Of a stretch of 21,982 bases of DNA, positions 2,300 through 18,910 are shown piece by piece (position 1 is the stretch's first letter; the number at the start of each line of letters is the position of its first letter). Origin of the DNA: a virus. The notes under the pieces are model-generated. The model did no database searches. It was not told the origin of the DNA and worked only from the letters and a program-made list of their open reading frames with translations. Position numbers and translations under genes: made by a program. The stretch lies in the IMG/VR virus record IMGVR_UViG_3300047171_000137, positions 1 through 21,982 of that record. One strand, given 5' to 3'.

Positions 2300-2544
2300 A
2301 GAGCATTTTCCGACCGATTGGGGTCACCCGTCGGGTTACTAACCAGGCGGTCAAAACGTAACATAAGAGGCAAGGCTGTTCTTTTTTGAAAAAAAGAACC
2401 AAAAAACTTTTGTTCTTTGGGGTGCGCCTGTTCAAACACAGACCTAAGGAAACAAAAGTTTTTTGGTTCTTTTTTTCAAAAAAGAAATCCTTTCTTTGAT
2501 TTAGAGATGAAACGTATTTGCGCGCCGGGTTAGTAAAATGCTCT
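2300..2544. repeat. Outer imperfect inverted repeat enclosing element A
   Basis: AGAGCATTTT at 2300-2309 is the exact reverse complement of 2535-2544. TTACTAACC at 2336-2344 matches the complement of 2528-2536, and the match continues imperfectly through GGCG..CAAA.ACGT. The left side has about 26 extra nt between these two blocks, with its own CCGAC/GTCGG stem. Element A is therefore nested inside a second, more diverged palindrome. The right arm touches the stop codon of the adaptor gene (2543-2545). Confidence 0.7.
2372..2492. repeat. Inverted repeat element A (perfect 36-bp arms)
   Basis: The arms at 2379-2414 and 2451-2486 are exact reverse complements (36/36), separated by a 36-nt spacer. 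Each arm also folds on itself: TTCTTTTTT, then GA, then AAAAAAGAA. AAGG/CCTT at the outer edges (2372-2375, 2489-2492) extends the symmetry imperfectly. A close relative lies at 18771-18910. The arms are very A/T-rich in a GC-rich genome. The element lies in the gap between the spike gene and the adaptor gene, both minus strand. I see no target-site duplication and no ORF inside. It may be a REP/MITE-like element, a transcription terminator or an RNA-processing site; the sequence does not decide between these. Confidence 0.9.
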
Positions 2545-3028
2545 AGCTTGTCGTGATGGGGGCTCCGGTCTGGTCCGTCAGAGGTGCACCTGTCTGATCG
2601 GTGATATCCGTCGTGTTGACGGTGGAAGGCGTCGCCAAGGCTTCGACAGGCAGCGAAACGGTTCGCGAGAAGATACGGCCGCTATTTGTCCCGACCACCA
2701 CCGTCACAGCGTAGGTCGTGCCCGCAATGCCGCCGGCCAGCCATAATATGGCTATATCGCCGTCCGCACTGGAAGATTGCAGTGTGAGATCGCCCGTATT
2801 GTTCGGGTAGATGCTGACATCAAGCGTTGCGATTGCATCGCCCTGATTCCCGGCCAGGGCGTCGGACAGGTCGAACACATAGTCAAGCACATCGCCGGGA
2901 TCCTTGATCGGCCAAATCAGAGGCGGCGGCTGCATCTGCAGCACACCGCGCGGAAACGGTCCGAACCCTTCGACGACGACCACGCGGCCGGTTGTCGGTT
3001 GCCAGGTATAGGTTGCACGCGTAGCCAT
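2543..3028 (-). CDS. Phage fiber-tail adaptor-like protein
   Basis: 161 residues. GGGGA lies 6 nt before the ATG. The core (LIWPIKDPGDVLDYVFDLSD near 38-57, then strands ending GTNSGRIFSRTVSLPV) matches my memory of the phage fiber-tail adaptor family. That family has an immunoglobulin-like beta fold thought to join a fibre or spike to the tail. The C-terminus carries a short tandem repeat: TDQTGAPL followed by TDQTGAPI. It lies between the Gly-rich fibre gene and the beta-helix spike gene, which fits a joining role. The family name is from pattern memory; the adaptor function is inferred. Confidence 0.7.
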   Translation of the reverse strand: MATRATYTWQPTTGRVVVVEGFGPFPRGVLQMQPPPLIWPIKDPGDVLDYVFDLSDALAGNQGDAIATLDVSIYPNNTGDLTLQSSSADGDIAILWLAGGIAGTTYAVTVVVGTNSGRIFSRTVSLPVEALATPSTVNTTDITDQTGAPLTDQTGAPITTS

Positions 3029-3107
3029 GCCATGTCCCCTCAGCTACTTGGCCATATCACCGCATTCCTGCAGGCCGCAGGGGAATGACTGGCGCACTCA
3101 ACGCGCC

Positions 3108-4355
3108 CTACCACTCCACAAGCACCAGGCCGGGCCCGCCAATCCCGCCCAGTCCGGTGCCGATCCCGCCCGATCCTCCGGCGCCCGGCGAGGTACCGTT
3201 CACCCCGGCGAGCACGGCACCGCTCGCGGCCGCGACCGCGGAAACCGCGCCCGCGCCGCCAAACGCGCCGCCCCCGGCGCCGCTCATCACGTTGGGCGAG
3301 GCAATGAAGGCCGCCCCGCCCGCGCCGCCGCTCACCACAAAACCTGAACCGCTCGCAGTGCCGCCCGCAGCACCCCCCAGGCCAGTGCCGGAAGGCGAAC
3401 CTTCCGCGCCGGCCTGGCCGCCCAACGCAGACGCAAGGGCCCCGAAGCTCGATGTGCCCCCGGGCGTGCCGGATCCTGCACCACCATTGCCGACCGTGAT
3501 CGTGATCGTTTCCCCCGGCGTGACGTCATAATACCCTTCGCAATAGCCTCCCCCCGCGCCCCCGCCTCCCGGCCCGGTAAACCCCGTGCCGCCTGCGCCT
3601 CCCCCGCCCCAGATACGCACTTTTACGGAACTGATGCCCGCTGGAACCAGCCAACCGCCTTCCGTTGTCGGGCCGAAAGCCGCGAGATTATGCGTCCCCG
3701 GCGTCAGTTGCGGCAGCTTCCAGTTGACGAACGGCGCGGTCGGATACACGGCGATATTGGCTGCCGTGACAGCGGCTTGTCCGTAGGCGACCGTGACCAC
3801 ATAAAGCCCCGCCCAACCCGAATCGACCGCTGGTGTAGCTTGCGAACCGGTTGCCGCGGGCGCACCCGCCTTCACCTGCAGCTGCACGCTTTGCAAACGC
3901 TGCGTATTCTGCGCCTCCCCATCATTGTTTGGCCCGCTATACGGCTGCGAGGGCATTGCCGCATTGTAATAGGGCAGCACAACCGGCGTGGCATCCTGTT
4001 CCAGGAAGCTTGCCTCAACCAGATAATTGATGGCCTGGCCAGGCACAGTTGGGGCCGCCACGGTAAAAGCTGTGCTGGACCGATTGACAGCCATCCGAAC
4101 CAGCGGGTCGCTCAGCGCCGGCAGCGAACCAAACGCCGTCGTGTCCACAAGGCCGAATTGGGTAATGCTCCCCGGACCCACGGAAAAACCAAGTGACGCC
4201 GGAGACGTGGGCGTGCATGCTAGGCCGTCCACCACTGTCGTGCTGCCCAAGGTTACCTGAGCCAGGTAGCCAAGTGCCACCATGACATTGCGCTCAACGT
4301 TCAGTATATCGGTATCGAGCGGAATACTGCCAGGATAGACGATTTGTCGGTCCAT
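3108..4355 (-). CDS. Tail fibre with C-terminal glycine-rich receptor-binding domain
   Basis: 415 residues from the ATG at 4355, which has GGGG 8 nt upstream (AAAGGGG). The open frame runs on to 4523, but the extra N-terminal stretch is Arg/Ser/Cys-rich and unlikely to be coding. The N-terminal part (MDRQIVYPGSIPLDTDIL) is a tail-attachment-like region. The middle (about 40-240) is beta-rich. The last about 172 residues (from VKVRIWGGGGAGG, about 244, to LVLVEW) are dominated by Gly, Ala and Ser. This kind of Gly-rich domain occurs in many phage fibres. In phage S16 gp38 such repeats form a polyglycine-II sandwich that binds the receptor; the same fold here is inference. Gene order places it after the baseplate wedge proteins and before the adaptor. 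Confidence 0.8.
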   Translation of the reverse strand: MDRQIVYPGSIPLDTDILNVERNVMVALGYLAQVTLGSTTVVDGLACTPTSPASLGFSVGPGSITQFGLVDTTAFGSLPALSDPLVRMAVNRSSTAFTVAAPTVPGQAINYLVEASFLEQDATPVVLPYYNAAMPSQPYSGPNNDGEAQNTQRLQSVQLQVKAGAPAATGSQATPAVDSGWAGLYVVTVAYGQAAVTAANIAVYPTAPFVNWKLPQLTPGTHNLAAFGPTTEGGWLVPAGISSVKVRIWGGGGAGGTGFTGPGGGGAGGGYCEGYYDVTPGETITITVGNGGAGSGTPGGTSSFGALASALGGQAGAEGSPSGTGLGGAAGGTASGSGFVVSGGAGGAAFIASPNVMSGAGGGAFGGAGAVSAVAAASGAVLAGVNGTSPGAGGSGGIGTGLGGIGGPGLVLVEW

Positions 4356-4461
4356 AAAGCAAACCCCTTTATTTCCGACCTGCCTTGTCGAGGACAGTAT
4401 CGAAGGCAGAGTCAGGCAGATGTTGAACGTTGAAGGTCGCAGTGCAGCCAGACTGCAGTAC

Positions 4462-5121
4462 CTAAGTCTCGATGCGCGTCCAGGCGATATATCCCGCCGG
4501 CAGAATACCCGCGACGGCCGCATAGATGTCAGAGTCGGTCACCTGCGTCGCGACCATCGTGATATCCCCGTAATAGGAATAGCCGCCGGTGCCATACCCG
4601 GCGAAATTTGCGATACCGCTGCCCAGCGGGCGGAATGCCGTCACAAAGCTGGCATAGTTCAGGGCGAGATTACCCCATCCGCCGGCCACCGAATATCCAA
4701 TGCCGCCGGATGCGTAACCCCCCGTATCGGCAGGACGCGCTGGTTCGAAGATCACCGGCGGCGTGCCAGTCAACTCGGTCAACGCTAAAGCCAGCGCCGA
4801 CCGTGTCCCCCGTGGCCGCAGCAGCTCATCCTTGATGCGACTGCGATAGTCGGTATCTGACTCCTGCGGTCTTCGCGGCAGGCCAGCCCCGAAATAATCG
4901 ACACTCGCCAGATCAAGGAACGGGCCAAATACCGTGGCCAGCCGGGTGAGAAGCCGCACGTTGGCGATCAGGTTGAAAATGGCCGCCCAGGCGGTGCCAA
5001 ACCCGGTTAGCACGGCCTGGAGGAATGTCGCCGGTTGCGGCGGCACGCTCGGCTCGGAAAACCACCCGCGCGGCAAAACGGCGATCATGCGCCGGACGAA
5101 ATCGGCGGCATCACCCAGCAT
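4462..5121 (-). CDS. Baseplate wedge / tail protein I-like
   Basis: 219 residues. The start overlaps the end of the J-like gene by 11 nt, typical of the P2 J-I pair. The N-terminus (LPRGWFSEP near 16-24, FLQAVLTGFGTAWAAIFNLI near 33-52) and the central segment (RPQESDTDYRSRIKDELLRPRGTRSAL, split by PRGTR) fit tail protein I / phage-tail DUF families that sit between gpJ and the fibre in the baseplate wedge. The C-terminal third is Gly/Tyr-rich (GGYASGGIGYS, GYGTGGYSYYGD), probably where the fibre binds. The assignment rests on motif style plus position. A 106-nt gap with no visible gene separates it from the fibre start. Confidence 0.7.
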   Translation of the reverse strand: MLGDAADFVRRMIAVLPRGWFSEPSVPPQPATFLQAVLTGFGTAWAAIFNLIANVRLLTRLATVFGPFLDLASVDYFGAGLPRRPQESDTDYRSRIKDELLRPRGTRSALALALTELTGTPPVIFEPARPADTGGYASGGIGYSVAGGWGNLALNYASFVTAFRPLGSGIANFAGYGTGGYSYYGDITMVATQVTDSDIYAAVAGILPAGYIAWTRIET

Positions 5122-6244
5122 TGGCGTTCACCGTTACCGAAAGCGCAAGCAGAACACCATTATAGGGGGCCACGACATCCAAATTGGCGCCATTGATCGT
5201 TGTTCCGTTCACGCTGACAACCGACGCATCGGTATTATGGGCAATCGCCTCTATCTTCGATACCGCCAAGGTACCGGCGATCGGCAGGCCCGCTACCCAT
5301 GCAAGAACATTTTGCTGTATGGAAGCACCCACCTGCGCGGCGGTCAGCGCATTCGACGTCACCACGTTCATGAAAATGGTCACGTCCACAACCGCCGGCG
5401 CATTCACCGAATACGTCGCCCCGATCGGCCTGACCGCCTCGATGGCGAGGCTGGCCTCCGTTATCAGGGTCGAAGGTGGAAAACCTGTGCCGTCGTCAAC
5501 GACAACACAGAAATGCCCCGGCAGGAAGGCGCCCGTCGTGTCGATGTTTTCCAGGACGACATAGCGCAACCCCTGTTGCAGGGAAGCCAGCACGAATTCG
5601 ATCGCCCCACCGGTCGCCAGGGATCGGCTGTTGATATAGAGCTGGAACCGGATGCGAAATGCAGCATCGGATTCAGGATCGACGCCGCCGGCAAAAGCCT
5701 GGGCATTTGTAACCGTATCGATCCCGGGAATTGGCATCTTGAGCAATTGGATGGTGTTCGGTTGGACATTGCCGGCGCTCCCAGGAGCCACCGCCTGCGC
5801 AGCCACCGTCACGCTTGCCACGGAGGCGCCGAGCACATAGCCATTGCTCCCGTTCCAGGCGGGATTGCTCGAATCCGCCACAACGGTAAAACTTTGTGTG
5901 CCGTCGGTCGTACTCGCCACGGCACCAACCGGAATGGTCGTCGTTATCCCGACGGTATAGCGCGAAAATGTCAGGCTCCCGGCGGCATCCGATCCCGGCA
6001 GCCTGGTCAGCGAAAAATCCGCCATCCAGCTATCGAGATCGCTGCCTGTGCTGGTTGCGGCTCTCGTCATCGATAGAACCTGCAGGATCAGCCACTGCAT
6101 CCACAGCGCCACGGAGGCGCAGGCTTCCAACAATGCCCGCAACACGCTGCCGACGGTGAGGTCAATCAACTGTGCGGCGCTGCCTTGCACGCCAGCAGCC
6201 ATATTCTGGACAAGCGTCGTAAATGTCTGCAACGGCAGGATCAT
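5111..6244 (-). CDS. Baseplate J-like protein (gpJ family)
   Basis: 377 residues from the ATG at 6244, which has GGTGAG 8 nt upstream. A GTG at 6253, overlapping the upstream stop, is the alternative and gives 380 residues. It has the gpJ/Mu gp47 layout. The N-terminus (LPLQTFTTLVQNMAAGVQGS) is followed by the helical LTVGSVLRALLEACASVALWMQWLI segment and by TSTGSDLDSWMADFSLTRLPGS. Next come a beta domain with AVAPGSAGNVQPN (near 155-167) and GGVDPESDAAFRIRFQLYI, a hallmark of the family. The C-terminal part resembles the usual repeat of the wedge-interaction domain. gpJ forms the baseplate wedge around the hub of contractile tails. It is coupled by overlap to the W-like gene upstream and the I-like gene downstream. 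Confidence 0.93.
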   Translation of the reverse strand: MILPLQTFTTLVQNMAAGVQGSAAQLIDLTVGSVLRALLEACASVALWMQWLILQVLSMTRAATSTGSDLDSWMADFSLTRLPGSDAAGSLTFSRYTVGITTTIPVGAVASTTDGTQSFTVVADSSNPAWNGSNGYVLGASVASVTVAAQAVAPGSAGNVQPNTIQLLKMPIPGIDTVTNAQAFAGGVDPESDAAFRIRFQLYINSRSLATGGAIEFVLASLQQGLRYVVLENIDTTGAFLPGHFCVVVDDGTGFPPSTLITEASLAIEAVRPIGATYSVNAPAVVDVTIFMNVVTSNALTAAQVGASIQQNVLAWVAGLPIAGTLAVSKIEAIAHNTDASVVSVNGTTINGANLDVVAPYNGVLLALSVTVNANAG

Positions 6245-6245
6245 C

Positions 6246-6614
6246 TCAGGCACTCACCGGGAATGACAGAATCTGTGTCGCTCCGGTCGTCGAATCGACA
6301 TACCGCAGATAGACGTAAACCGTGCCGTCGGGCAAACTCTGCACGTCGATCGTCGGTTCCGGTATTCTTGCCACCGCCTGCTCCATGAAAATCTGACTTC
6401 TGATCGCCGATCGGATCGCCGCCACATTGGCAGGTGTGCCGACAAATTGGGCGAGACCGGCGCCGTATCGCAGGTGCCATATATAGTCGCCGGGATTTGT
6501 CAGCAGACGGCGCAGAACCCTCTGCTGCCCAAGCATCGTCCCCGCAACCAGCGCGATATCACCGGTCGGGCCGATGGAGAGATCGCCGCCCCAAAGCAAT
6601 GCTGCATCCGGCAT
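6246..6614 (-). CDS. Baseplate protein W / gp25-like
   Basis: 122 residues, in the size range of GPW_gp25 proteins. The sequence GGDLSIGPTGDIALVAGTMLGQQRVLRRLLTNPGDYIWH, taken in parts around residues 9-46, has the family's order: a beta strand, a turn, then Q..L..LLT.PGDY. The next part, YGAGLAQFVGTPAN, carries the conserved YG-G motif. The C-terminus is beta-rich with TQILSFPVSA. Members are lysozyme-like-fold wedge proteins that start sheath assembly in contractile tails. GGAAGGTG precedes the ATG. The gene lies directly before the J-like gene, as in P2 (V-W-J-I). The 170-nt gap upstream holds a palindromic repeat. Confidence 0.9.
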   Translation of the reverse strand: MPDAALLWGGDLSIGPTGDIALVAGTMLGQQRVLRRLLTNPGDYIWHLRYGAGLAQFVGTPANVAAIRSAIRSQIFMEQAVARIPEPTIDVQSLPDGTVYVYLRYVDSTTGATQILSFPVSA

Positions 6615-6674
6615 ATGGCACCTTCCGAAACATGCGGCTTGCAGATGTCTGTCGCTCTAGGCCTTTGCTTTGGC

Positions 6675-6720
6675 GAGCATGTTAATCCGGCGGCTGATCG
6701 CATATGGCCGGATCATGCTC
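6675..6720. repeat. GAGCATG-type imperfect palindrome
   Basis: The plus-strand block 6675-6691 (GAGCATGTTAATCCGGC) pairs with 6707-6720 (GCCGGATCATGCTC), leaving a 3-nt bulge. The loop contains CATATG. It fills most of the 170-nt gap between the V-like and W-like genes, where I see no gene. The minus-strand reading AGAGCATGATCCGG resembles a dispersed intergenic palindrome I remember from alphaproteobacterial chromosomes; this was not checked. Confidence 0.65.
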
Positions 6721-6784
6721 TAAGCCCAAGGGCGTGCGGCCCGACCCCTGCCGATCAGTCCCGTCCGCAGCTCAAGGATCTTCG

Positions 6785-7309
6785 TCAATCTGTGGGCGTC
6801 GGTGGTGTCGTGCTGGGCGGATGGACATGCTCGTTGTAATGCGTGCGCAGATCGGCAAGGGAATTGTGGGAGTCGTAGACATTGCCTGTCACATGCAAGT
6901 CCCCTGAATGCGTCCATGTGGGCGCCTTGCTTTCGATCGACCCGTCGTTGTGGAGTTTGATAAAACTCCCACTTTGGTGGATCAGCCAGAACTCGCCGAC
7001 GGGAGCGCCCGGGGTGGCCGTTGTGTTCGACCAGATGCGGCCCACGATGATCCCGTGCTCGGACTCGCCCTCCTGGCACAAAACCAGCACCTGGTCTCCC
7101 AGCATAGGCGGGCAAGCGAGGCCCCATCCGGCGCCAATCCAGGGCGTTGCAATAGGCAACCAGCCGGATAGCACGCCCTCAGGCTGAATGGTCACGCGCG
7201 CCGTATAGGTTGCCGGATCAACGCTGCTCACCACCGCCAGCCGCGGCTGTCCCCAGCCTTGATCGATTTGGCTGGCGCGTGCCTTAAACAGGTTCAGAAA
7301 ATCGTCCAT
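6785..7309 (-). CDS. Baseplate spike / assembly protein V-like
   Basis: 174 residues. AAGGA lies 8 nt before the ATG, and the start overlaps the hub gene by 16 nt. The OB-fold-like N-terminal part (RLAVVSSVDPATYTARVTIQ, LSGWLPIATPWIGAGWG, then MLGDQVLVLCQEGE with GIIVGRIWS) matches phage baseplate assembly protein V / gp5-type spikes. The tail (residues about 115-155) has the short repeating strands of a beta-helical needle: SGSFIKLHNDGSIESKA. The C-terminal NEHVHP (His161-Val-His163) is the His-x-His motif. In P2 gpV-type spikes this motif binds a metal ion at the membrane-piercing tip. Function: the central spike beneath the hub. The VHP is followed by a Pro/Thr-rich end. Confidence 0.92.
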   Translation of the reverse strand: MDDFLNLFKARASQIDQGWGQPRLAVVSSVDPATYTARVTIQPEGVLSGWLPIATPWIGAGWGLACPPMLGDQVLVLCQEGESEHGIIVGRIWSNTTATPGAPVGEFWLIHQSGSFIKLHNDGSIESKAPTWTHSGDLHVTGNVYDSHNSLADLRTHYNEHVHPPSTTPPTPTD

Positions 7310-8304
7310 GGCGGCATCCTTGCCTCGACCGTCTGGTAGAAGCCGTGTTCGAAGGACATCCGCCGTTCGACCGACGTGATCATATAAACGCCGTCAAAAT
7401 CTGTGTCCGTATCGGCAATGGCCAAAGTCCCGCGCGGAGCTGTCGTCAAATCGCCTGGCATTTCGATGATCACCACCCGCCCTTGTTGCGCCATTAGGGC
7501 AACTAGGCGATTCGCCAGGCCCTGGGCCGCATCGGATGTCATATTTGGTCGCACCACCACGTAACCCGCCGCGCCGTCCGCAAAGCCGCCGGTCGAGGCG
7601 GTTTGTGAAATGGCCTGGCTGCCCCGGCAATCCCAGCTCTTCACCGAGACACTCAATCCCGCGCTCAGCGCAGTCGAGCGGTCCAACCGCATCGAAATGC
7701 AATCCTGCGGTGTCAGCAGAAGCGGCTGCGGATCAGCTGCGAGCGGCGCAAAATACAGCGCCTGGCCATCCACCCAAACATCAAAACCTTCCAGCTCCGC
7801 CAATCGTACGAGCAGATCCCATTCGGTCGTCGAGCGTGCATGCTGGTCCAGCGTGGAGCGCACATGATCGTTCTGGAAATTGCGGCCGACAAATGTCGTG
7901 GTAGGCGTCACCACGGGCAGCAGCCCGTGCCGGGCCGCCAATATGGTCGCGATGTCGCTCGATGTCTGGTTTTCGAAACTCTCTTGCGTCCTCGCTTCAA
8001 TCAGGCTTGCCGTCAAGTCGCGCCCTTCCGCCATCACCTCGTTCAACGCAGGGTCAACCGAAATCCGATCGACTGGCCCGAGAATCATGCTTGTCCAGGC
8101 GCCGTCCAATCCAAGCCTGATCTCGATCTGCACCTCGTCGGATGACCAGATCGTATAGCCGGTGGCGGCCAGCGACGCCCGTACCCGATATCTGTTGGCC
8201 GATTGATATGAGTTGCTGGCAATCTCCGCATCCAATATCCCCGGCACCAGCGAACCGTTCACAAAAACCGCGAGTGCCGGCGAACGCACATTATTGCTGC
8301 CCAA
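7294..8304 (-). CDS. Baseplate hub protein, late control D / gp27-like
   Basis: 336 residues from a TTG at 8304, chosen because a full AGGAGG lies 5 nt upstream. The frame stays open to 8415, but that extension overlaps the LysM gene almost completely. Early sequence LAVFVNGSLVPGILDAEI, then SYQSANRYRVRASL and VEIRLG-like text, is typical of gpD/gp27 hubs. DLTASLIEARTQESF (about 90-105), a HARSTTEWDLLVRLAELEGFDVWVD segment split near TEWDL, and the C-terminal GVYMITSVERRMSFEHGFYQTVEARM are also family features. The hub trimer links the tube and the spike. It is flanked by the X-like LysM gene and the V-like spike gene, the standard order. Confidence 0.88.
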   Translation of the reverse strand: MGSNNVRSPALAVFVNGSLVPGILDAEIASNSYQSANRYRVRASLAATGYTIWSSDEVQIEIRLGLDGAWTSMILGPVDRISVDPALNEVMAEGRDLTASLIEARTQESFENQTSSDIATILAARHGLLPVVTPTTTFVGRNFQNDHVRSTLDQHARSTTEWDLLVRLAELEGFDVWVDGQALYFAPLAADPQPLLLTPQDCISMRLDRSTALSAGLSVSVKSWDCRGSQAISQTASTGGFADGAAGYVVVRPNMTSDAAQGLANRLVALMAQQGRVVIIEMPGDLTTAPRGTLAIADTDTDFDGVYMITSVERRMSFEHGFYQTVEARMPPWTIF

Positions 8305-8476
8305 CACCGCCTCCTGCCGCGGCATCGATATCAGGCAGGGTAAGGGTTGTGATGCCGGATAACCACGGGTCGCTGATCGCATTGAGCTGCGCGATGCGTA
8401 TCCATTGCGTCGCATCTTGCAGATACTGCGCGGCGATCTGGAACAGGTTGCCGCCTGCCACCGTCACGATCTCCAT
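8291..8476 (-). CDS. LysM-like small tail protein (gpX-like)
   Basis: 61 residues. The ATG at 8476 overlaps the stop of the U-like gene (TGATG), and GGGGA lies 4 nt upstream. The sequence VTVAGGNLFQIAAQYLQDAT followed by WIRIAQLNAISDPWL and TLTLPD is a single LysM-type fold: beta, helix, helix, beta. Tail protein X of P2-like phages has the same domain and size and joins tube, hub and peptidoglycan-contacting parts. The frame could be opened upstream to 8509, but that would overlap the previous gene without a better ribosome site. The downstream hub gene begins inside its last codons. Confidence 0.85.
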   Translation of the reverse strand: MEIVTVAGGNLFQIAAQYLQDATQWIRIAQLNAISDPWLSGITTLTLPDIDAAAGGGVGQQ

Positions 8477-9186
8477 CAGGTCCCCGCGCCACTCAGGTTG
8501 TTTGCGCATCGTTCAACATAGCCGCGTGCGGCGCAAAGTTGTGCGAGCGTGCCGGATGAACGGACAAGGCTCGTCAAGTCCGAGGCATCAAAGCCGGTCT
8601 CGGTCGCGCCCACAGATGTCAAGTTCGTCTCAGTGTCATCAATATCCGTCGTGATATCATCCGACGTGCTCGCGAGGGTGGTCGCGGCAGCCGCATAATC
8701 CGCATTGCCCTGCGTCAATGCATCCGGCACCGAAATCGCCGACAAAGCCGAGGAGACATCGAAATAGGCGGAGGCGGATGTCAGATCATCGAGAATCGCG
8801 TCAGCCAGGTCAGGCGTATACGCGGCGACGCTTTCCCCCAGATCCACCACCACGACGCACGATATTTGATAGGGGATCCACCACGGATTACGGTAGTCCA
8901 TGATCAGCGATTCGATCACAACGTTGTAGCTGAACGCATCCCATGAAACTCCGAGCGTTGCACCCGCCCCCCGCATTGCATCGAACATCCTGGCCCTGTC
9001 GCCCGCATAGGGTCCGGAGAAAACCCCGGCCCATCTCAGGGAAGCATCATCCGGCCCCATGACATCGACCACGCGCATGCCGCCGATCAGCGTGTGAACC
9101 GCCAGTCGCTGCGCACCGCCGAATATCACGTCGGACGGTATTTCGAAGTCGATAAGCTCAACCCCTCCAAGTGTTAGAAGCGCCAT
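8476..9186 (-). CDS. Tail protein U-like, with C-terminal helical extension
   Basis: 236 residues. Two adjacent ATG codons (9189 and 9186) follow a G-run, and the stop of the upstream gene lies inside them. The N-terminal half (LLTLGGVELIDFEIPSDV, FGGAQRLAVHTLIGGMRVVD, then DASLRWAGVFSG and DRARMFDAMRGAG) reads like gpU / baseplate-adjacent tail terminators: a first strand, FGG.Q..., and W.G.F. NPWWIPYQISCVVVVD ends the beta part near residue 115. The last about 120 residues are low-complexity, helical and rich in Ala, Thr, Ser and Asp, as is common in DNA-circularisation-type and gp53-like tail proteins. It lies between the tape-measure-like gene and the LysM gene. The exact family is uncertain. 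Confidence 0.65.
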   Translation of the reverse strand: MALLTLGGVELIDFEIPSDVIFGGAQRLAVHTLIGGMRVVDVMGPDDASLRWAGVFSGPYAGDRARMFDAMRGAGATLGVSWDAFSYNVVIESLIMDYRNPWWIPYQISCVVVVDLGESVAAYTPDLADAILDDLTSASAYFDVSSALSAISVPDALTQGNADYAAAATTLASTSDDITTDIDDTETNLTSVGATETGFDASDLTSLVRSSGTLAQLCAARGYVERCANNLSGAGT

Positions 9187-10316: not shown

Positions 10317-10603
10317 CCCCTGAAACCCTTCAACCGCGTGGCCAGCAAGTCCACCACCATTGGCGCCGAGTCCCGCGCTATACTTTCCATGAGCGCCGTT
10401 GGCGGCATGCCTGCTCTACCAAGTTCCCACTCCCGTACTTGTGCCGAACGACTTGCAATAATAACTTTCTTGCCATCACGGCGAAGGAAGAGATCGTTCG
10501 GCAAACCCTGCTCGCTCAGGCCCGCCCGAAGCGCTTCCGCCAGCAGCTCAGCAGCGGCCAGCAGCGAGTCGGTCAGCCGCTCTTCCAACGCCGCGTTGTC
10601 CAA
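10313..10603 (-). CDS. Small tail protein between chaperone and tape-measure-like gene
   Basis: I do not recognise a firm family. It has 96 residues from the TTG at 10603 (LDNAALEERL), with TGGA 6 nt upstream. The frame stays open to a GTG at 10645, inside the chaperone extension. The first 35 residues form an Ala/Leu-rich helix (DSLLAAAELLAEALRAGL). The middle (DLFLRRDGKKVIIASRSAQV) is beta-like. REWELGRAGMPPTALMESI is reminiscent of the E-G-pocket of HK97 gp10-like tail proteins, a weak resemblance. Its start lies 30 nt inside the frameshifted chaperone ORF (stop at 10573) and its stop overlaps the next start, so it is coupled on both sides. Confidence 0.65.
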   Translation of the reverse strand: MDNAALEERLTDSLLAAAELLAEALRAGLSEQGLPNDLFLRRDGKKVIIASRSAQVREWELGRAGMPPTALMESIARDSAPMVVDLLATRLKGFRG

Positions 10604-11512: not shown

Positions 11513-11525
11513 CGTTGGCTCTCTC

Positions 11526-11651
11526 CTAAAGCTGTTCCAGCAGGCGCATGAACATGCTGGGAAAGGTCTCGGTCAGTGGCAGTGCGTCTATGTCACCGAA
11601 GGTGTTCCACCGGGCAGTGTTTGTCGCTGCACGATAACGGTCTGCCCCCCC
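11526..11651 (-). other. Possible -1 frame extension of the sheath from a G7 tract
   Basis: The sheath zero frame reads GAG GGG GGG CAG at 11653-11642. A -1 slip on the seven Gs (11645-11651) would skip the zero-frame stop at 11588. It would read 39 codons (beginning ADRYRAATNTARWN, with TETFPSMFMRLLEQL at the end) to TAG at 11526. That TAG overlaps the AGGAG of the tube gene. There is no ATG, GTG or TTG start in this frame before the final nine codons, so it cannot be an independent gene of any size. The codons beyond the sheath stop look coding (five CTG, ACC, GAG, CGC). Confidence 0.35.
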
Positions 11652-13168
11652 TCGACATTCACGATGAACATCTCATTGATGCTCTGGAACTGCACCTGCG
11701 CATTGCTTTGGACGAAGCCCAGGTTGGTCATGCTCTGCGGGTTATTGCTGGCATCGCAAATCACTGAAAATGGCAACGACCCATCGAGGCTTCCCAAAAC
11801 ACCCTGAGCATAGAGGTTGAACAGAAAACTCAGCTGCGTCGCCCTGATCTGCTGAAACAGCGTCGTGTTGATAACCTGACCAATAAACTGCCCCATGCCC
11901 GCGGCAAGAGTAGCAGCAATATAATTCGTCAGCCGGGTATAATTGTCGCCGTGAATGGCTGCATTCGATGAACTATTATGCCCGCAACGCACGCCCCAAT
12001 AGGCGCCACCTGGCTGCGGATTGGCGATCACATCTATCCCATTCAGGAATAATGTCTGAAGCTCCGCGTCGCTATAGGTCGAAACCTGTCCCGAATTCGG
12101 TGTGCCCGACCATTGTGTCCCGATAACGCTGTAGAGCGGCTTGTTCAGGCTCGATTGCTCCGGCGACAAATTGCCCAGCCGTCCCGCCACGAATCCCTGA
12201 GGGGAGACGACGCGCGTGACAGCATTCGCCTGATCGTACCAATACACCCAATCGCCGAACATCAGTTTCGCCGCGTAGGAATCCAACCCCGCGATCTGCT
12301 TCGTTGTCACGGCGCCCGTAATGGTCTGTCCTTGCGGACCGGTCAGGATCATATAGATGCCTTCCGAAAGACCAAAGGCGGCCTGTGTCGTCCATTGCGT
12401 CGAGTCATCGGAATCGGCAAGCACCCCAATGCCGCAACCCTGAGACCGCAAGGCGTACATCCCTGTCCGCGGCAAACTATCCTGCCCGATCAGGCTTGCT
12501 GACGTCACTCCCGTGGCGCCATCCGTCCCGCCCGAGAGAAGCTGCGGGCCAAAGGCATAGGGCGACTCGCTCGTCAAAGTGCCAAGCGTGGCAACGACAA
12601 GCTGGGAGGGCCCGCGCAAGGCCCCGGTCCCGTTATTGACGGCATTGACCAGGTTCTGCCAGAAAACCGCCGCCGAAGGCGCCGCTATATTGGCATAAAC
12701 CTCCGGCACAAGGCCTGGCAAGCCGACAACAAGTTGCCACGCCCCCGCCATCGCGGCTTGCGACAAGGTAAGCGTTATGTTGTTTCCGAGCGAGCCGGTG
12801 TGAAGGGCGGTAAACATCGCATGGAAAGCGCCGCTCGTAAGTCCAACCGCATAGCTCGCGGCCGTATCGCTCCCGTCTGTCACGCGCACGCATCGAAAAT
12901 CCGTCGCACCCTGCTGAATCGCCGTCGCAACCGATGTTCCCATATCGTATTTCCGGGCGACGATAGGCCCGAAATTCTGCGCATAGTCGGCCATCGTGCC
13001 GACCACGACTGGTTGGTTGGAAGGGCCCCAGCTGGCGGTTCCGACAACGCCTATGAGATTTGTCGGAACGCCGTTGAGCACGAGATTTTGCGGCGGAACA
13101 ATTTGCACATACAGGTCCGGCACGACCAGAGCCGTCGTGTTCAGCGTTCCTTGTTGTACGATCGGCAT
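11588..13168 (-). CDS. Tail sheath protein
   Basis: 526 residues from the ATG at 13168, which has AAAGGGG 8 nt upstream. The frame opens to 13195, but that would add a basic nine-residue stretch with no ribosome site. MPIVQQGTLNTTALVVPDLY and NLIGVVGTASWGPSNQPVVV are the start of contractile sheath proteins. GATDFRCVRVTDGSDTAASY and GYWGVRCGHNSSS-type text in the C-terminal half (AYWGVRCGHNSSSNAAIHG, near 410) are typical of the conserved sheath core. The C-terminal strand INEMFIVNVEGGQTVIV ends the core. Function: a contractile cylinder around the tube. It is followed by the tube gene after a 75-nt gap, and preceded by 100 nt without a visible gene. Confidence 0.93.
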   Translation of the reverse strand: MPIVQQGTLNTTALVVPDLYVQIVPPQNLVLNGVPTNLIGVVGTASWGPSNQPVVVGTMADYAQNFGPIVARKYDMGTSVATAIQQGATDFRCVRVTDGSDTAASYAVGLTSGAFHAMFTALHTGSLGNNITLTLSQAAMAGAWQLVVGLPGLVPEVYANIAAPSAAVFWQNLVNAVNNGTGALRGPSQLVVATLGTLTSESPYAFGPQLLSGGTDGATGVTSASLIGQDSLPRTGMYALRSQGCGIGVLADSDDSTQWTTQAAFGLSEGIYMILTGPQGQTITGAVTTKQIAGLDSYAAKLMFGDWVYWYDQANAVTRVVSPQGFVAGRLGNLSPEQSSLNKPLYSVIGTQWSGTPNSGQVSTYSDAELQTLFLNGIDVIANPQPGGAYWGVRCGHNSSSNAAIHGDNYTRLTNYIAATLAAGMGQFIGQVINTTLFQQIRATQLSFLFNLYAQGVLGSLDGSLPFSVICDASNNPQSMTNLGFVQSNAQVQFQSINEMFIVNVEGGQTVIVQRQTLPGGTPSVT

Positions 13169-13268
13169 GCCTAAACCCCTTTTCTCTGTGGGCAAGCAAG
13201 CAGGCCAGAAGCCGGCACAATGGCTGCCGTCTCAGGCCGTGGCCCAAACTAGGACATTTATTTATTGA

Positions 13269-14078
13269 TCAGGCGTAGATTGAAGCGCCATTGCAGATCA
13301 GGTCGCCGAACAGCAAGGATGGCGCATCGGCCAATACGGTCGTCCCGTATTCCACCTCATAAACAAGATCGCGGCGATATTGCTGGGCATCCTGGTCGTC
13401 ATCGAAGCTGGCCGTCGATCGGTATCGAATCCGCCCCCCCGTCCCGTCCGAAAGTGTCAGAAAGGCGATCGATGAGAAAGCACTGCCAATGGCGCTGCAA
13501 AGCACATCCCGCGTTGCAGGATCTGGGCACCACGCGGAAATCCGAAATCCCTGCCTCTGGCGAGACCATTCCGTCAGGGATGTCCCGTCCGCGACGACAC
13601 GCGCGATAATGGATGCAAGTCCCGGGACAGTCACGGTTGCCCCAGACAGCCAGCACGCTCTCACCTTTCTCACAAGCTGGGCCAGCATTGCCGCGACCAG
13701 CGCCGGTGTGTCCCCGCTCGTCACACGATAGACAAAAGGCTGATTCGAAATCAGCAATCCGGCCAGTTGTCCCGCGCCACTGGCGCCGGAGAATGTCGCC
13801 GAGTTGGCGCTTACGGAAACTGAAAGCGTCGGCACGCCGGATGCGGTGACAGCGCGTGGTGCCCACCTCGTCGTATTGCGGGTAGAGTTGGCCACGGAAA
13901 ATACGCTGATATTGGCGACGCCCCCCGCAAGGTCATTGGCAAGTGGTCCGATCAACGGCCAACCGCGGTAAATTCTTAATGGATTGCCTGTAATACTGGG
14001 CGCAGTCAAACCTGCCGGATAGACCGCCGCGGTGACCGCCGTCACCAGAGCAGCCTCCACGTCCGACAGATCTGCCAA
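13269..14078 (-). CDS. Neck / tail-completion-type structural protein
   Basis: 269 residues from a TTG at 14078. It was chosen because AAGAGG lies about 9 nt upstream and the protein then starts LADLSDVEAALVTAV, which resembles the start I remember for phage proteins of this group. The frame opens to 14192, but the added sequence is Ala/His/Cys-rich and overlaps the upstream gene. Later parts include PLRIYRGWPLIGPLANDLAG, VANISVFSV, then TRNTTRWAPR. R-x-YRGWP plus NISVF and RNTTR are recurring motifs in unnamed neck or tail-terminator proteins of myophages. The role at the head-tail junction is inferred from position before the sheath. Confidence 0.65.
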   Translation of the reverse strand: MADLSDVEAALVTAVTAAVYPAGLTAPSITGNPLRIYRGWPLIGPLANDLAGGVANISVFSVANSTRNTTRWAPRAVTASGVPTLSVSVSANSATFSGASGAGQLAGLLISNQPFVYRVTSGDTPALVAAMLAQLVRKVRACWLSGATVTVPGLASIIARVVADGTSLTEWSRQRQGFRISAWCPDPATRDVLCSAIGSAFSSIAFLTLSDGTGGRIRYRSTASFDDDQDAQQYRRDLVYEVEYGTTVLADAPSLLFGDLICNGASIYA

Positions 14079-14158
14079 GGCGATTGACCTCTTGAGTGAG
14101 AAATGAGTCGCAGCGTGATCGCAAGCAGCAGCAGCTTTATCCGCAAACGCCGCTCGTC

Positions 14159-14785
14159 TCAGGCACCAAGCTGCCGCACCAGCAGGCGCCATCCGAGCGA
14201 AGTTTGTTCGGCGGCGCCGACCACATAATTCGCCCCCAGATCGTCTGTCACCACGTCGGCCACGGCCAGGCCCACCGGCAAGCTCGGCAACAGCAGGTCC
14301 CAGCTCCCAAGCCGCGTGTCTGTCGGCCGAAGGGGCACACTATGCCCGCCACTTTCGAGCAGGCTCGCAGGCCATCCAGCAATCACCAGCTGTCCTGGTG
14401 ATGCAAAGAAGCCGCTATAGCTTCCTTGGCTGGCCGGCAGGGGTCTCACGATCGTCACGGTACGATTGGTCAAAACGCACTGGACAGGTAGACCAGGCCA
14501 TTGCCGGGCGATGAAATAGGTGGCGCTTGCCCCCGCCAAATAATCCCCCGATTGCGTATAGCCGGCATCGAAGGTTCCCCACCACAGGGCGACGCCATAA
14601 TCCGGGCCATGCGGCGCACCCCCGCCTTCTGCTGAAAATGCCGCATACAGATCAAGTCGTCTGTTTTGCGGTTGGAGGGGTTCGTTTACGCCCTTCGGTC
14701 GATATACCGAATACAGCGCGCCAAGCTTCCGCCCGGCGACGCCCATGCCTTTTGCGATCCGGTCCTGTAATGTCGAAGCATCCAT
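14159..14785 (-). CDS. Conserved phage structural protein near the neck
   Basis: 208 residues. The ATG at 14785 overlaps the previous stop (TGATG). The frame opens to 14866, but that would add a basic stretch with no ribosome site. It begins MDASTLQDRIAKGMGVAGRK, a helical start, then YSVYRPKGVNEPLQPQNR and LDLYAAFSAE. VYRP.G...PL...NR is a motif of unnamed proteins in myophage neck regions. The remainder is beta-rich with W-x-P-G and PLPASQGSYSGFFASPGQLV. I cannot give a function. It is translationally coupled to the 124-residue gene upstream and followed by 80 nt before the next start. Confidence 0.65.
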   Translation of the reverse strand: MDASTLQDRIAKGMGVAGRKLGALYSVYRPKGVNEPLQPQNRRLDLYAAFSAEGGGAPHGPDYGVALWWGTFDAGYTQSGDYLAGASATYFIARQWPGLPVQCVLTNRTVTIVRPLPASQGSYSGFFASPGQLVIAGWPASLLESGGHSVPLRPTDTRLGSWDLLLPSLPVGLAVADVVTDDLGANYVVGAAEQTSLGWRLLVRQLGA

Positions 14786-15159
14786 CAAACAACCCAATGC
14801 AAACCGGCAGTGTCCAGCCCTTCGCCGGGCGGCACGCCAAAAAAGCTGCATAACCGTCGACGCCACTCATCGAGCAGTCTGAGGCGATCACCAATCTCCG
14901 AGCGATTATGTTTCCAGCTGGCCGCCGCGTCGCTGTCAAGATTATCGCTGGCAGTCGGCACCGCCGCCTCCAGTTGATTGAGTGTCAGCAAGTAGTTCAA
15001 GACCACCGCGATCTCGGCCGGCGACAGGTTGTTCATGCGGTATTCAAGCAGCCCATAGGCGACATAGAAGCGCCACCCAATATTTCCTGCCGGTGACGCG
15101 CCATAGGCGGGATAGCCGCAGAAACGCCTTATATCTGTCTTCTGCTGGTCGGTCAGCAT
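14785..15159 (-). CDS. Head completion / connector-type small protein
   Basis: 124 residues from the ATG at 15159, preceded by GGGGGA 5 nt upstream. The frame opens to 15264, but the added part overlaps a strong hairpin region. It starts MLTDQQKTDIRRFCGYPAYG, a start I associate with small head-completion proteins after the capsid gene. It is almost all helical: GWRFYVAYGLLEYRMNNLSP, LNYLLTLNQLEAAVP, then DRLRLLDEWRRRLCSFFGVP. It lies between the capsid gene and the 208-residue neck protein. The function at the portal-neck interface is inferred, not shown. Confidence 0.7.
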   Translation of the reverse strand: MLTDQQKTDIRRFCGYPAYGASPAGNIGWRFYVAYGLLEYRMNNLSPAEIAVVLNYLLTLNQLEAAVPTASDNLDSDAAASWKHNRSEIGDRLRLLDEWRRRLCSFFGVPPGEGLDTAGLHWVV

Positions 15160-15250
15160 GGAGTCCCCCGTCCGAACGCACGCAAGCGTAAAATACACTG
15201 CGGAGATCAGGGCAAGTTTCAACTGTATCGGCTTGAGCACCGCACCAAAA

Positions 15251-15278
15251 TCCCTCTCCCGCACTCGCGGGAGAGGGA
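15251..15278 (-). terminator. Strong hairpin, REP-like / candidate terminator
   Basis: A 12-bp perfect stem (TCCCTCTCCCGC with GCGGGAGAGGGA) has a 4-nt loop. On the minus strand it is followed by ATTTTGG, only a short T-run, so it could end the portal-scaffold-capsid transcript weakly. The CCCTCTCCCGC...GCGGGAGAGGG core resembles a dispersed repeat I remember from many proteobacterial chromosomes. Confidence 0.55.
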
Positions 15279-15365
15279 GGGGGCGGCCGCGCAGCGTTGG
15301 GTGGGTGACGGGGCTCAGTCGGGCTAATCAATGCCCAGGCCGCCTGGACTAAACCTGCCGTAGGA

Positions 15366-15384
15366 TGGGCTGCCGTGCAGCCCA
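15366..15384. repeat. TAGGATGGGCTGC-type hairpin repeat
   Basis: TGGGCTGC and GCAGCCCA form an 8-bp perfect stem with a 3-nt loop, preceded by GTAGGA. The GTAGGATGGG start recalls a widespread proteobacterial intergenic repeat; the match is from memory. Confidence 0.5.
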
Positions 15385-15510
15385 CCAACTCCGGGCGGCA
15401 CGAACCGGCAAAATGAACGGCTCGTGTCACTGGATTTCCCGTACATAAATCACCCGCTTAAGGTAATCCATGCACGCAGGCTTACGGCTGGTATGCCGCA
15501 CTCATCTCGA

Positions 15511-16839
15511 TCAACCGAGATGTTCAAGCATCACGGCGCGCTTGAAATTCGCGTTCGTCGCCGTGGGCACCGTCAATGCATTTGTCGTCGTATCAGACGG
15601 TGCGCAAAACCCACCAATCCAATACCACGATTGCGCAATAATCTGCTGCAGCCTGTCGATCGGCTCGCGTGTCACCATGCACACGCCGTCGACCAAAGAG
15701 ACGATGGACTCTTTTGGCGCAACATCGTCCGACGCCATGCCAGCGAAATCACCCTCAATCAGCGCCCCCTTCCCAACAACGATCGGCCGTCGCACCACCG
15801 CACCCACAACATTGGGCGAAGACTGGACAAAGGACTCAGTGGTCAGAACGAATCGCAGTCCGAGGAACTCGTTCACAACCCCCTGGCCTGGTTTGAAAAC
15901 CTCATTCGCCGAAAGTGCACCGATAAACAGGCGTTGAAAGTCAGGGTCGGCAAATAATTGCCTGGCACTGATCGGATCGAGGTAGCAATTATAGGCCCCA
16001 TCGATATCCGGCACCGCATTCAGGCGCAATCCGGCCACCGCATCCAACACATTGCTCATGGAAAGCGTGTCGCCCGCCTGCAACTGCGATGTATTCGTCC
16101 GCCCATTCGGCCGAAGAATAAGCGAGCCCGTCGCGGCCTGCACCGTGTTGCCGGCCGTCCCGTCGCTCACCGAAACATTGCCGGAACAGGTCAGCACGCC
16201 GCTGATCCCGCCTGGCGTTGTCGACACATTGGTCGCGTCCGCGCTGGCACCGGTCACCGTGTAGGTATCGGCGCCGATGGTCACCGCCAACGCATTCGAT
16301 CCAGCGACTGGCTGCTGAACCCCGTTGAGATATGCGGTCATGAAGCCGCGAATGTCATCAACCGAGACGGTGGGCCCTGCGGCTGTCAGAGTTGTACGAA
16401 CCCGCGTGTTGCCGGCAAAATACGCACTGAACAAAGCATTCCGCGCCAGGTCGTCCAGGCTCCGACCCGCCTGTTCGCCATTGATGTAGGCATTCTGCAG
16501 GAATTGGCTGGCAATCCCAACCCGGCTTGTCACCATGTTGAGATCCATGGTCGCCGCATAGTGGTTCAGCGTCAGCGTATACTGCTCCACGCTCCAGGAA
16601 CCGGGGCTCAGCCCGTTATCAAGATTCGTGTTCGTATTGGCAGCGAGCGGTAATGTGACCGCGGGCAGCAATCCTGCGCGCGTCTTGGTCAGCGTCTCGC
16701 CGATACCAACCGCAAATTCTTCTCGGTCTGCGCAAGCACGATAACCGAGCTTCGATCTCAACGCCTGCTCGAATTCGCGCTCCAGAAAACCCTGCTGGAT
16801 GATCGGCTGCAGTGCCGCGGGAAAATTCGCAATGCTCAT
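15511..16839 (-). CDS. Major capsid protein
   Basis: 442 residues. GGGGG lies 5 nt before the ATG. The N-terminal arm (FPAALQPIIQQGFLEREFEQ) and early core (LPLAANTNTNLDNGLSPGSW, VEQYTLTLNHYAATMDLNMV, then LQNAYINGEQAGRSLDDLAR) fit HK97-fold capsid proteins of the group without an internal protease. AYNCYLDPISARQLFADPDF (about 282-301) is the conserved P-domain segment, and the C-terminus from KGALIEGDF closes the core. Residues about 183-258 are a Thr/Ser/Gly-rich beta insertion, probably an exposed Ig-like insertion domain. It lies after the scaffold gene. No protease gene is visible, consistent with scaffold-driven assembly. Confidence 0.88.
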   Translation of the reverse strand: MSIANFPAALQPIIQQGFLEREFEQALRSKLGYRACADREEFAVGIGETLTKTRAGLLPAVTLPLAANTNTNLDNGLSPGSWSVEQYTLTLNHYAATMDLNMVTSRVGIASQFLQNAYINGEQAGRSLDDLARNALFSAYFAGNTRVRTTLTAAGPTVSVDDIRGFMTAYLNGVQQPVAGSNALAVTIGADTYTVTGASADATNVSTTPGGISGVLTCSGNVSVSDGTAGNTVQAATGSLILRPNGRTNTSQLQAGDTLSMSNVLDAVAGLRLNAVPDIDGAYNCYLDPISARQLFADPDFQRLFIGALSANEVFKPGQGVVNEFLGLRFVLTTESFVQSSPNVVGAVVRRPIVVGKGALIEGDFAGMASDDVAPKESIVSLVDGVCMVTREPIDRLQQIIAQSWYWIGGFCAPSDTTTNALTVPTATNANFKRAVMLEHLG

Positions 16840-16848
16840 TCATGCCCC

Positions 16849-16875
16849 CAGAAAAAGAGAAAGGGGCTGCGCCCC
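16849..16875 (-). terminator. Hairpin plus T-rich tail before the capsid gene
   Basis: On the minus strand GGGGC, GCA, GCCCC (16863-16875) is followed by TTTCTCTTTTTC (16851-16862). This is the shape of a weak intrinsic terminator or attenuator. It lies in the 65-nt scaffold-capsid gap, directly upstream of the capsid ribosome site, and might act as an RNA-stabilising element instead. Confidence 0.35.
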
Positions 16876-16904
16876 CGGTTCCACCTCAGTCGTCTCCGGC
16901 CGAC

Positions 16905-17309
16905 TCACCGTCGCCGGAGCAGCTCCGCCCGTGCGGCCCGCCACTCCTCAACGCTCATTTCCGTCGCCAATTTTCGCTTCATTGGTGCGGCATGAGGCGC
17001 GGCTGCGGTACTGCTCGAGTTTGCGCTGACAAACAGCCAGGGCTTGTCCCGCCTCAATTTGGCGATAATCTCAGGAACATCGTCGTGGCTGGCGCCGGCG
17101 GGCTTGGCCAGAACGGCTGCATCCAGCAATTTCAAGCCATCCAGATCCACGATGCCGGCTCGTATGGCTTCCGCCTTCAACTCGGCCTTGCGCAGCATCA
17201 GCGCCGAGTTGAGCTCAGCATCATGCAGCTGTCGCTCCAAAGCTTCCGCATGTGCCTTCAGTGTAGCAAATGCGCCTGCATCTCCCTTGTCCGGGTCTGC
17301 CTCGCTCAT
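16905..17309 (-). CDS. Scaffold / capsid assembly-type protein
   Basis: 134 residues. The ATG overlaps the portal stop (ATGA). It is charged and mostly helical: ATLKAHAEALERQLHDAELN, then LRKAELKAEAIRAGIVDLDG and LKLLDAAVL. EIIAKLRRDKPWLFVSA near 80-96 is the K-x-KPWLF segment common in GP20-like and other phage scaffolding proteins. A disordered linker (SANSSSTAAAPHAAP) leads to a short C-terminal helix, MSVEEWRAARAELLRRR. Such a C-terminal helix binds the capsid subunit in known scaffolds. The order portal, scaffold, capsid supports the role. It is shorter than classical scaffolds but not abnormal. Confidence 0.75.
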   Translation of the reverse strand: MSEADPDKGDAGAFATLKAHAEALERQLHDAELNSALMLRKAELKAEAIRAGIVDLDGLKLLDAAVLAKPAGASHDDVPEIIAKLRRDKPWLFVSANSSSTAAAPHAAPMKRKLATEMSVEEWRAARAELLRRR

Positions 17310-18700
17310 CCTGCATGCTCCGCTCTTATTCTCTGGAGTTCGATTGCCACATCTTCAATGTCGTAATCCGAGGCAAGTATCCTCAGCGCCGTTTCTCGCG
17401 ACATTTGGGCAGCACCTACAAGTGAGATCAGCGTCTCGGCTTTCCTCTGGCCGTCCAGTGCATCGTCCGGATACCAATCCGGCCAGCGGAGACTCACCTG
17501 TGCGTTCGCGTTCAAGGCGGGCACACTGCGCCCTTCGATCCGCAGCGGGAAAACATGGCTGGCGCGGAGCACCATGCGCGCCACGCTCAACAAAGCGCCT
17601 TGGCCATAACTCACCCGCAAATTATCCGCGAGCCAAAGCAATCCCTGTTGCATCAACTCCATGGCGCGCCCACTCGCAGGCGCCGCCAAACGCTGCGCGT
17701 CCGCCCTGTTTCCATGCAGGCTTTCCAAAGCGAGGTCGCGCAAGACGCGGACATACTCAATCACCGCCTGGCTCGCCGTGCCGCCGATCTCCAACAGTTT
17801 GGCGTCACCTTTCTCGCTCACCACAAGCGCGTTGGCGGCGCCGCGTACCATGGTTCCATCCAAACCGGCCGGCTCTCGAATCAGCAATGTCGGATCGCTG
17901 CTGTATTTAAGTCCGCGCCCGGCCTGGCTGAGCTGATAGTCGATCTCGATGCCCGTATCGATGGCACTGCGGAACGTACAGGCGCCGTCCACGCCCTGCC
18001 CGCCGGGCAGATTGCGTATCCACACCAGCGGCACAAAGCCCAACCCATGCCGGATGGAACGCCCAGAATCCTCCTCCGCCTCGCCTGCGCTTCCCACCGG
18101 CATCGGCTGATACCAACGCTCGAACTCATCGTCCCAGACGCGTTGGAACCAGTAGATCTCGCTCGGGTCCGCGATCGGAAAACCCTGTGCCGCAAGGCTC
18201 GCGCCACTCGCCTTGTAACGCTCAGTGATGCGCATGAGCGTGTCGGGCGCTTGCCGATCCCATTCGGGAGTCAGATAAAGCGCATCCAGCACATCAACAA
18301 AAACGCGTCCTCGCAGAACGCGCAGCAGCAAGGCCACTGAACCCACACTACCACGCAGACCGGCCTCCACCATCACGGCATTTAGCCGTGCATCGCGGAC
18401 AAACGCGGCAAGCGCGTCGCGGACGGTGGCGTCAGACGACTCGAATGAAGGGAAATGTCCCTCGCTGAACAGCAAAGCGACACTGTCTTCCACCACAAGT
18501 CGCGCCAGCCCGTAGCGAACCGAAGGCCGCCTCTGGCGCAGCGGCACGTATTCTCCGCTCAAGGATCGCTCTTCGTGGAATTCGTAGGGCAGCACGTCAT
18601 AAATCGTGCCGTCCAATATGCGCTGATAAATGGTCAGCACGCGCGTACGTTCCGGATAATCGGCATCCAGCGGAACGAGATCGGAGATCGCACGGAACAA
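17306..18700 (-). CDS. Portal protein (SPP1 gp6-like)
   Basis: 464 residues from a TTG at 18700, chosen because AAGGGA lies 8 nt upstream. The frame stays open to a TTG at 18766 (486 residues) without a ribosome site, and there is no ATG nearby. Family text includes VLTIYQRILDGTIYDVLPYE, YGLARLVVEDSVALLFSEGH, then EFERWYQP and LGFVPLVWIRNL. FRSAIDTGIEIDYQLSQAGR and LKYSSDPTLLIREPA are the conserved core of gp6-type portals, including the DP.L. motif. The C-terminal helices (ALRILASDYDIEDVAIELQR) form the crown region. It forms the dodecameric DNA entry ring at the capsid vertex. It is coupled to the scaffold gene by ATGA. Confidence 0.88.
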   Translation of the reverse strand: MFRAISDLVPLDADYPERTRVLTIYQRILDGTIYDVLPYEFHEERSLSGEYVPLRQRRPSVRYGLARLVVEDSVALLFSEGHFPSFESSDATVRDALAAFVRDARLNAVMVEAGLRGSVGSVALLLRVLRGRVFVDVLDALYLTPEWDRQAPDTLMRITERYKASGASLAAQGFPIADPSEIYWFQRVWDDEFERWYQPMPVGSAGEAEEDSGRSIRHGLGFVPLVWIRNLPGGQGVDGACTFRSAIDTGIEIDYQLSQAGRGLKYSSDPTLLIREPAGLDGTMVRGAANALVVSEKGDAKLLEIGGTASQAVIEYVRVLRDLALESLHGNRADAQRLAAPASGRAMELMQQGLLWLADNLRVSYGQGALLSVARMVLRASHVFPLRIEGRSVPALNANAQVSLRWPDWYPDDALDGQRKAETLISLVGAAQMSRETALRILASDYDIEDVAIELQRIRAEHAG

Positions 18701-18770
18701 CCTGAGTATCCCTTGCTTGGCTTCAAGATAAAAGACGGCGCTTGCAGCCACACGAGGCAAGTGCAAGCTT

Positions 18771-18910
18771 AAGGATGTTCTTTTCTGAAGAAAAGAACCA
18801 AAAGACTTTTATGTCTGCGCCAGCGCAAGCATACAGGCCATGGCCTGATAATTGGGAAGCGGCGGAGAAGTAAAAGTCTTTTGGTTCTTTTCTTCAGAAA
18901 AGAAGGCCTT
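18771..18910. repeat. Inverted repeat element B (perfect 34-bp arms)
   Basis: The arms at 18778-18811 and 18871-18904 are exact reverse complements (34/34), with a 59-nt spacer. Each arm folds on itself: TTCTTTTCT, then GA, then AGAAAAGAA. AAGG/CCTT at the edges extends the symmetry. The spacer holds a 14-bp palindrome, CAGGCCATGGCCTG (18835-18848), and a TGCGC/GCGCA stem (18816-18827). The arms differ from element A at only three of the first 33 positions, but the spacers are unrelated. It lies in the 241-nt gap between terL and portal, about 70 nt upstream of the portal start, where I see no gene. Confidence 0.92.

Follow-up and report, generated by a model that had tools for sequence, protein, structure and literature searches.

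The window analysed here, the whole 21,982-base stretch of a virus record (IMGVR_UViG_3300047171_000137), carries two matching inverted repeats on either side of about 16 kb of structural genes, which raises the question of what these repeats are and whether they act on the block between them. The main genes all lie on the − strand. Element 2 is placed between the terminase and portal genes, with the terminase stop codon 37 nt before it, and element 1 lies between the tail adaptor gene and an uncharacterised ORF. The nearest named phages are Komagataeibacter phages phiKX1 and phiKX2 (capsid protein 51.7% identical), whose host is an acetic acid bacterium (Acetobacteraceae); their terminase–portal order is the same as in the window, but the gap between the two genes is only 15 nt and holds no element. 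The features are as follows.

1-2271, − strand: uncharacterised ORF, after element 1 (no PHROG or Pfam match)
2300-2544, unstranded: 245-bp imperfect palindrome enclosing element 1, with ends AGAGCATTTT / AAAATGCTCT
~2368-2497, unstranded: element 1, the family-shared repeat unit, T/T arms, 42-nt loop (extent from host matches to query positions ~68-198 of 2300-2544)
2379-2411, + strand: element 1 arm, outer hairpin TTCTTTTTTGAAAAAAAGAA plus CCAAAAAACTTTT
2454-2486, − strand: element 1 inverted arm; outer flank lacks the closing-pair C (T at −1 vs C at 21)
2543-3028, − strand: gp77-type tail adaptor, directly before element 1 (Pfam PF23148, E=1.1e-24)
11588-13195, − strand: tail sheath
15511-16839, − strand: major head
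17306-18766, − strand: portal protein, directly after element 2 (PHROG 145)
18771-18910, unstranded: element 2, C/C arms, 61-nt loop, GCCATGGCC centre
18778-18810, + strand: element 2 arm
18872-18904, − strand: element 2 inverted arm; C at −1 vs C at 21, closing pair unformed
18942-20348, − strand: terminase large subunit (TerL; PHROG 38, E=2.9e-86; Pfam Terminase_6C)

An earlier note on this DNA had described two inverted repeats whose 33-nt arms differ at positions 8, 13 and 27. We recovered the same coordinates and found these three positions to be the only differences (element 1, TTCTTTTTTGAAAAAAAGAACCAAAAAACTTTT; element 2, TTCTTTTCTGAAGAAAAGAACCAAAAGACTTTT); it also holds that each change is present in both arms of its own element and that the two elements have unrelated spacers (42 and 61 nt). 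The perfect arms of element 1 are 36 nt long, and a 44-nt arm of element 2 is 93% complementary. A degenerate arm pattern, TTCTTTTNTGAANAAAAGAACCAAAANACTTTT, matched the window at exactly four places, whereas 100 dinucleotide-preserving shuffles contained no match, and Rfam covariance models gave no matches in the window at gathering thresholds.

These repeats are not phage-specific, and a confinement of the arms to this phage lineage, which would have spoken against a host origin, is excluded; they are copies of a dispersed palindromic repeat family of Acetobacteraceae genomes. The arm pattern matched 33 viral-contig stretches and, among the matches listed, more than 120 stretches of genome contigs, the records of which were mostly Acetobacteraceae or Rhodospirillales, while a few MAG records bear the names Asaia, Oscillospiraceae, Acidobacteria or Proteobacteria, in some cases perhaps wrongly. 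Ten genomes contained 24 to 1,156 arms each at up to three mismatches (reversed-pattern controls: zero). When 150 genomes of the family Acetobacteraceae, that of Gluconacetobacter liquefaciens, were sampled, 44 were positive with 1 to 1,228 arms each, and an even sample of the class Alphaproteobacteria gave arms in 0 of 288 others, G. liquefaciens itself being the sole positive. Within the genomes tested, the family is restricted to Acetobacteraceae and their viruses. Its highest density, in the sampled part of one genome, was one arm per ~2.4 kb. Cultured strains rich in the element include Acidiphilium sp. PA, Roseomonas sp. GC11 and Gluconacetobacter liquefaciens. Arms outside pairs were frequent (24 singles vs 8 pairs in 400 kb of G358, 43 vs 32 in 255 kb of G009). 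A literature search, which was not exhaustive, found the arm sequences in no paper, nor did the literature covered describe such a repeat family in Acetobacteraceae; this is a real repeat family, built like a REPIN and apparently undescribed so far.

Comparison of the copies indicated which part of the repeat is kept. The conserved unit is a single ~33-nt arm, in which a hairpin (9-10 bp, TGAA loop) precedes CAAAARACTTTT, and it occurs either singly or, as a full element, in an inverted pair around a variable spacer of 27-62 nt. Spacers fell into classes of about 27-29, 36-46 and 56-62 nt (164 pairs in fetched loci), and by eye those of one genome resemble diverged copies of each other. The common host element is asymmetric, with gTTCTTTTTTGAAAAAAAGAACCAAAAAACTTTT as the left arm and cTTCTTTTTCTGAAGAAAAAGAAGCAAAAAGACTTT as the right arm read inward; variants of the right arm, with G-C or T-A replacing C-G beside the loop, are frequent. 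The window copies are atypical, in that their arms match perfectly and the right-arm closing pair is lost in both; element 2 belongs by eye to a subfamily with C/C arms, a ~60-nt loop and the GCCATGGCC centre (loop sizes were computed).

The earlier note had proposed a search of Acetobacteraceae genomes and phages for the arms, and the many copies so found did show covariation among 483 distinct arms, which are related by descent, so that the counts are of copies and not of independent events. The closing pair −1:21 was standard in 475 of the 483 and the inner pair 8:13 in 482, against 246 and 371 expected if the two sides were independent; 8:13 was T-A, C-G or G-C in 481 and −1:21 was G-C, C-G or T-A in 473, and the loop was TGAA in 453. 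The occurrence of three pair types per position with almost no G-T intermediates indicates that the palindromy of the arm is kept. On the other hand, the two arms of one element are usually unlike (base 21 differs between them in 125/144 elements, and a T-type arm is joined to a C-type arm in 77/139 typed elements), so the long stem is not the maintained feature, and long-stem covariation was ruled out on this ground. Of the maintained structure suggested in the earlier note, the short arm hairpin therefore stands and the long stem falls. Since both window copies belong to one dispersed host family (T/T with a ~42-nt loop, C/C with a ~60-nt loop), their apparent covariation is partly common descent. 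Position 27 (A/G) is nearly fully linked to the 8:13 type (T-A/A, C-G/G, G-C/A); neither hairpin pairs it with 8 or 13, and the only explanation we can offer is subfamily descent. In L042, L058 and L059, another hairpin of a different size (TTCTTTTTTCAAAAAGAAG...) stands ahead of some single arms, which suggests tandem or composite arm arrays.

Element 1 sits within a larger insertion, the 245-bp palindrome, which is missing from the nearest relatives L253 and L254 (adaptor 94 and 92% identical). There the adaptor stop directly joins the next gene, reading ACAAGCTGATCC in both. The insertion site lies inside the adaptor stop codon, TGA having become T+AG, in which the AG of TAG is the insertion's own first bases. 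Host matches stop at the inner ~130 bp, which alone belongs to the dispersed family, and a pattern scan for the outer part as a dispersed repeat of its own gave unrelated chance matches only. The outer palindrome is a separate and rarer thing than the repeat family.

In the host genomes, the arms are seated on the ends of genes. With genes called by a simple codon-composition ORF caller, 96 of the 117 genes' stop codons facing an arm at host loci lay 0-20 nt from it (median 10), compared with 71.2 ± 3.4 under random placement in the same gaps. Convergent gaps were enriched over divergent gaps (odds ratio 4.6, p=2.7e-5); in G009, for instance, an arm was held by 16/33 convergent, 38/127 tandem and 8/34 divergent gaps. 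Of 122 host elements, 93 could be placed between genes, and 11 of these 93 lay in divergent gaps, to which a role at 3' ends is inapplicable. TAA was the stop codon in 53 of the 96 element-adjacent cases vs about 21% of all called genes, an excess due to the purine-rich outer flank (TAAGGAAG, TAAGCAAG), which extends into the stop codon. The TAA itself is often part of this flank, which thus appears to provide the stop codon. The window copies, 37 and 56 nt from the stops, lie farther away than most host copies.

The seat on stop codons, the enrichment in convergent gaps, the T-rich tracts on both strands and the strong predicted folding (−104.5 kcal/mol, z −12.2; −73.6, z −11.3) point to a putative 3'-end hairpin. 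We consider it probable that the repeat is a host-origin dispersed sequence serving as a portable hairpin for gene 3' ends, which is copied around and carried into phage junctions, and that it is no switch for the 16-kb block. Such a hairpin would terminate transcripts on one or both strands, would form stop-proximal structure in the mRNA, or would do both. REPs are reported to terminate transcripts or to change how long an mRNA persists (PMC12306157; PMC8049555), and REPs no more than 15 nt from a stop codon are reported to stall ribosomes and to reduce translation (PMC12306157). The present family resembles stop-proximal REPs in the closeness of hairpin and stop codon, about 15 nt at most (PMC12306157); of the REPs predicted in E. 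coli, however, just ~11% lie so near (PMC12306157), against the 96 of 117 stops at up to 20 nt here. It is also like Rho-independent (bidirectional) terminators in the hairpin just after the stop, the convergent-gap enrichment and the T-rich tracts on both strands, but a terminator would require nothing like the near-identity that the 33-nt arm shows between genera, and the arms themselves are AT-rich hairpins. In a simple terminator scan, element 1 came out as terminator-like, on the − strand alone, and element 2 did not; the window-wide yield was barely above that of shuffles. A single arm lacks a U-tract when read from outer to inner side, and would thus be no classical intrinsic terminator on that strand. 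In the phage, termination at the TerL-portal junction would split the late operon if there were neither antitermination nor a local promoter; the phage copies are passengers, possibly with a local 3'-end effect.

Considering their abundance, conservation and tie to stop codons, the repeats should strongly shape gene 3' ends in the affected members of the Acetobacteraceae, to which producers of vinegar and of cellulose belong. A wider reading, which we put forward only tentatively, is that they form a RAYT-independent, family-specific REPIN-like population that spreads onto gene ends and supplies both a stop codon and a bidirectional 3'-end hairpin, reaching close to half of the convergent junctions in some species, and that is shared with phages, which gain and lose copies between structural genes. 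The family is a test of whether REPIN-like populations can exist without a RAYT.

As for how the copies spread, the closest known system is the REPIN, which has conserved inverted ends, a variable spacer and compensatory changes (PMC3116915, Bertels & Rainey 2011). A REPIN proper would be driven by a RAYT, a REP-associated tyrosine (Y1) transposase, the doublet being a non-autonomous transposon and the seat after stop codons reflecting only tolerated insertion sites. The architecture agrees well with this (PMC3116915): conserved inverted arm pairs, a spacer that varies around fairly fixed lengths, singlets beside doublets, an extragenic location, up to hundreds of copies and compensatory hairpin changes. 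However, PF01797, the RAYT family, had no match in the copy-richest genomes G009, G375 and G422; of 26 genomes, some of them MAGs and possibly incomplete, only 4 gave weak matches. No recurrent protein lay between the arms in the fetched loci. The arms are AT-rich and purine/pyrimidine-biased, and neither their consensus nor the flank table contains GTAG or CGTC, the tetranucleotide tags that mark one end of the repeat in the superfamilies of REPs described by Di Nocera et al.; CGTC repeats are reported missing in Acetobacteraceae (PMC3733652). Further differences from REPINs are the asymmetric arm types within an element, the strong overlap with stop codons and the presence in phages. The build is REPIN-like, but the defining feature tested, the RAYT, was not found where copies are richest, several of the genomes being MAGs; we rejected a RAYT-dependent REPIN on this basis and regard this origin as unlikely.

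A classical MITE, with terminal inverted repeats, mobilisation by a DDE transposase and target-site duplication, is more doubtful still. Its inverted termini, dispersed copies and presence or absence at orthologous junctions would suit the data, as would the TIR-like ends (AGAGCATTTT) of the 245-bp insertion, and bacterial repeats of this type (NEMIS, ERIC, RUP) are likewise short, dispersed and extragenic with inverted termini. Unlike these, the present family showed neither a target duplication nor an autonomous partner: flanking direct repeats were not above expectation in 152 elements (offsets 0-25, lengths 3-10), which led us to reject a MITE that makes such duplications, and no recurrent transposase was flanked by the arms among the fetched loci. 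In addition, the arms are selected individually as hairpins.

Uptake signals are arranged as inverted pairs in some bacteria, and by analogy the arms might be a conserved protein-binding or DNA-uptake-type signal, termination being a by-product. An arm so extremely conserved between genera, next to a variable spacer, would fit such a signal, as would the linked change at position 27, which neither hairpin explains. Nevertheless, the compensatory changes indicate that at several positions it is palindromy and not the exact sequence that is kept, and we consider this explanation very improbable.

Related phages, and host genomes too, differ in which junctions hold an element. The TerL-portal junction holds no element in L158-L162 (portal 80-90% identical) and single arms of other subtypes in L163, L165 and L166, while L158 and L161 have elements before TerL and L167 and L168 after the portal gene. 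The closest relatives thus lack both window copies at these junctions and have copies elsewhere. Likewise, in a minority of host genomes the 3' ends of hemB and dnaB bear elements of different types. Presence and absence at orthologous junctions are observed directly and show that phages acquire and lose terminator-like repeats of host type where their genes adjoin; some copying process would account for the spread of the repeat and its entry into phage intergenic junctions. In L162 a different palindrome (AGAGCGGGATG...CATCCCGCTCT) stands right at the TerL stop codon, some 90 nt ahead of the portal start, indicating that the TerL-portal junction collects several kinds of palindromic insert.

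The bracketing of the structural genes pointed out in the earlier note is real geometry, but that the two copies, alike in their arms and 16 kb apart, would be recombination sites inverting or deleting the portal-to-adaptor block, as that note had also thought possible, can be dismissed as extremely improbable, since the arms share merely ~33 nt with 3 mismatches, relatives carry their elements at other junctions, and gene order and orientation are unchanged in G469, G470 and G471 (capsid 92, 86 and 83% identical) whatever elements these carry. An invertible or deletable cassette was rejected on this collinearity, which leaves such a function of the pair unsupported and suggests that the pair is no switch. 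Such matching inverted repeats in phages should accordingly not be read as invertible switches or packaging signals.

Finally, an exact host arm, GTTCTTTTTTGAAAAAAAGAACCAAAAAACTTTT, is present at positions 670-703 of L403 (MG945182.1, Microviridae sp., from cattle blood, an unverified record). This is a circular Microviridae genome in which the arm copy is intergenic, and to judge from the arm, its presence hints that the phage may have an Acetobacteraceae host.
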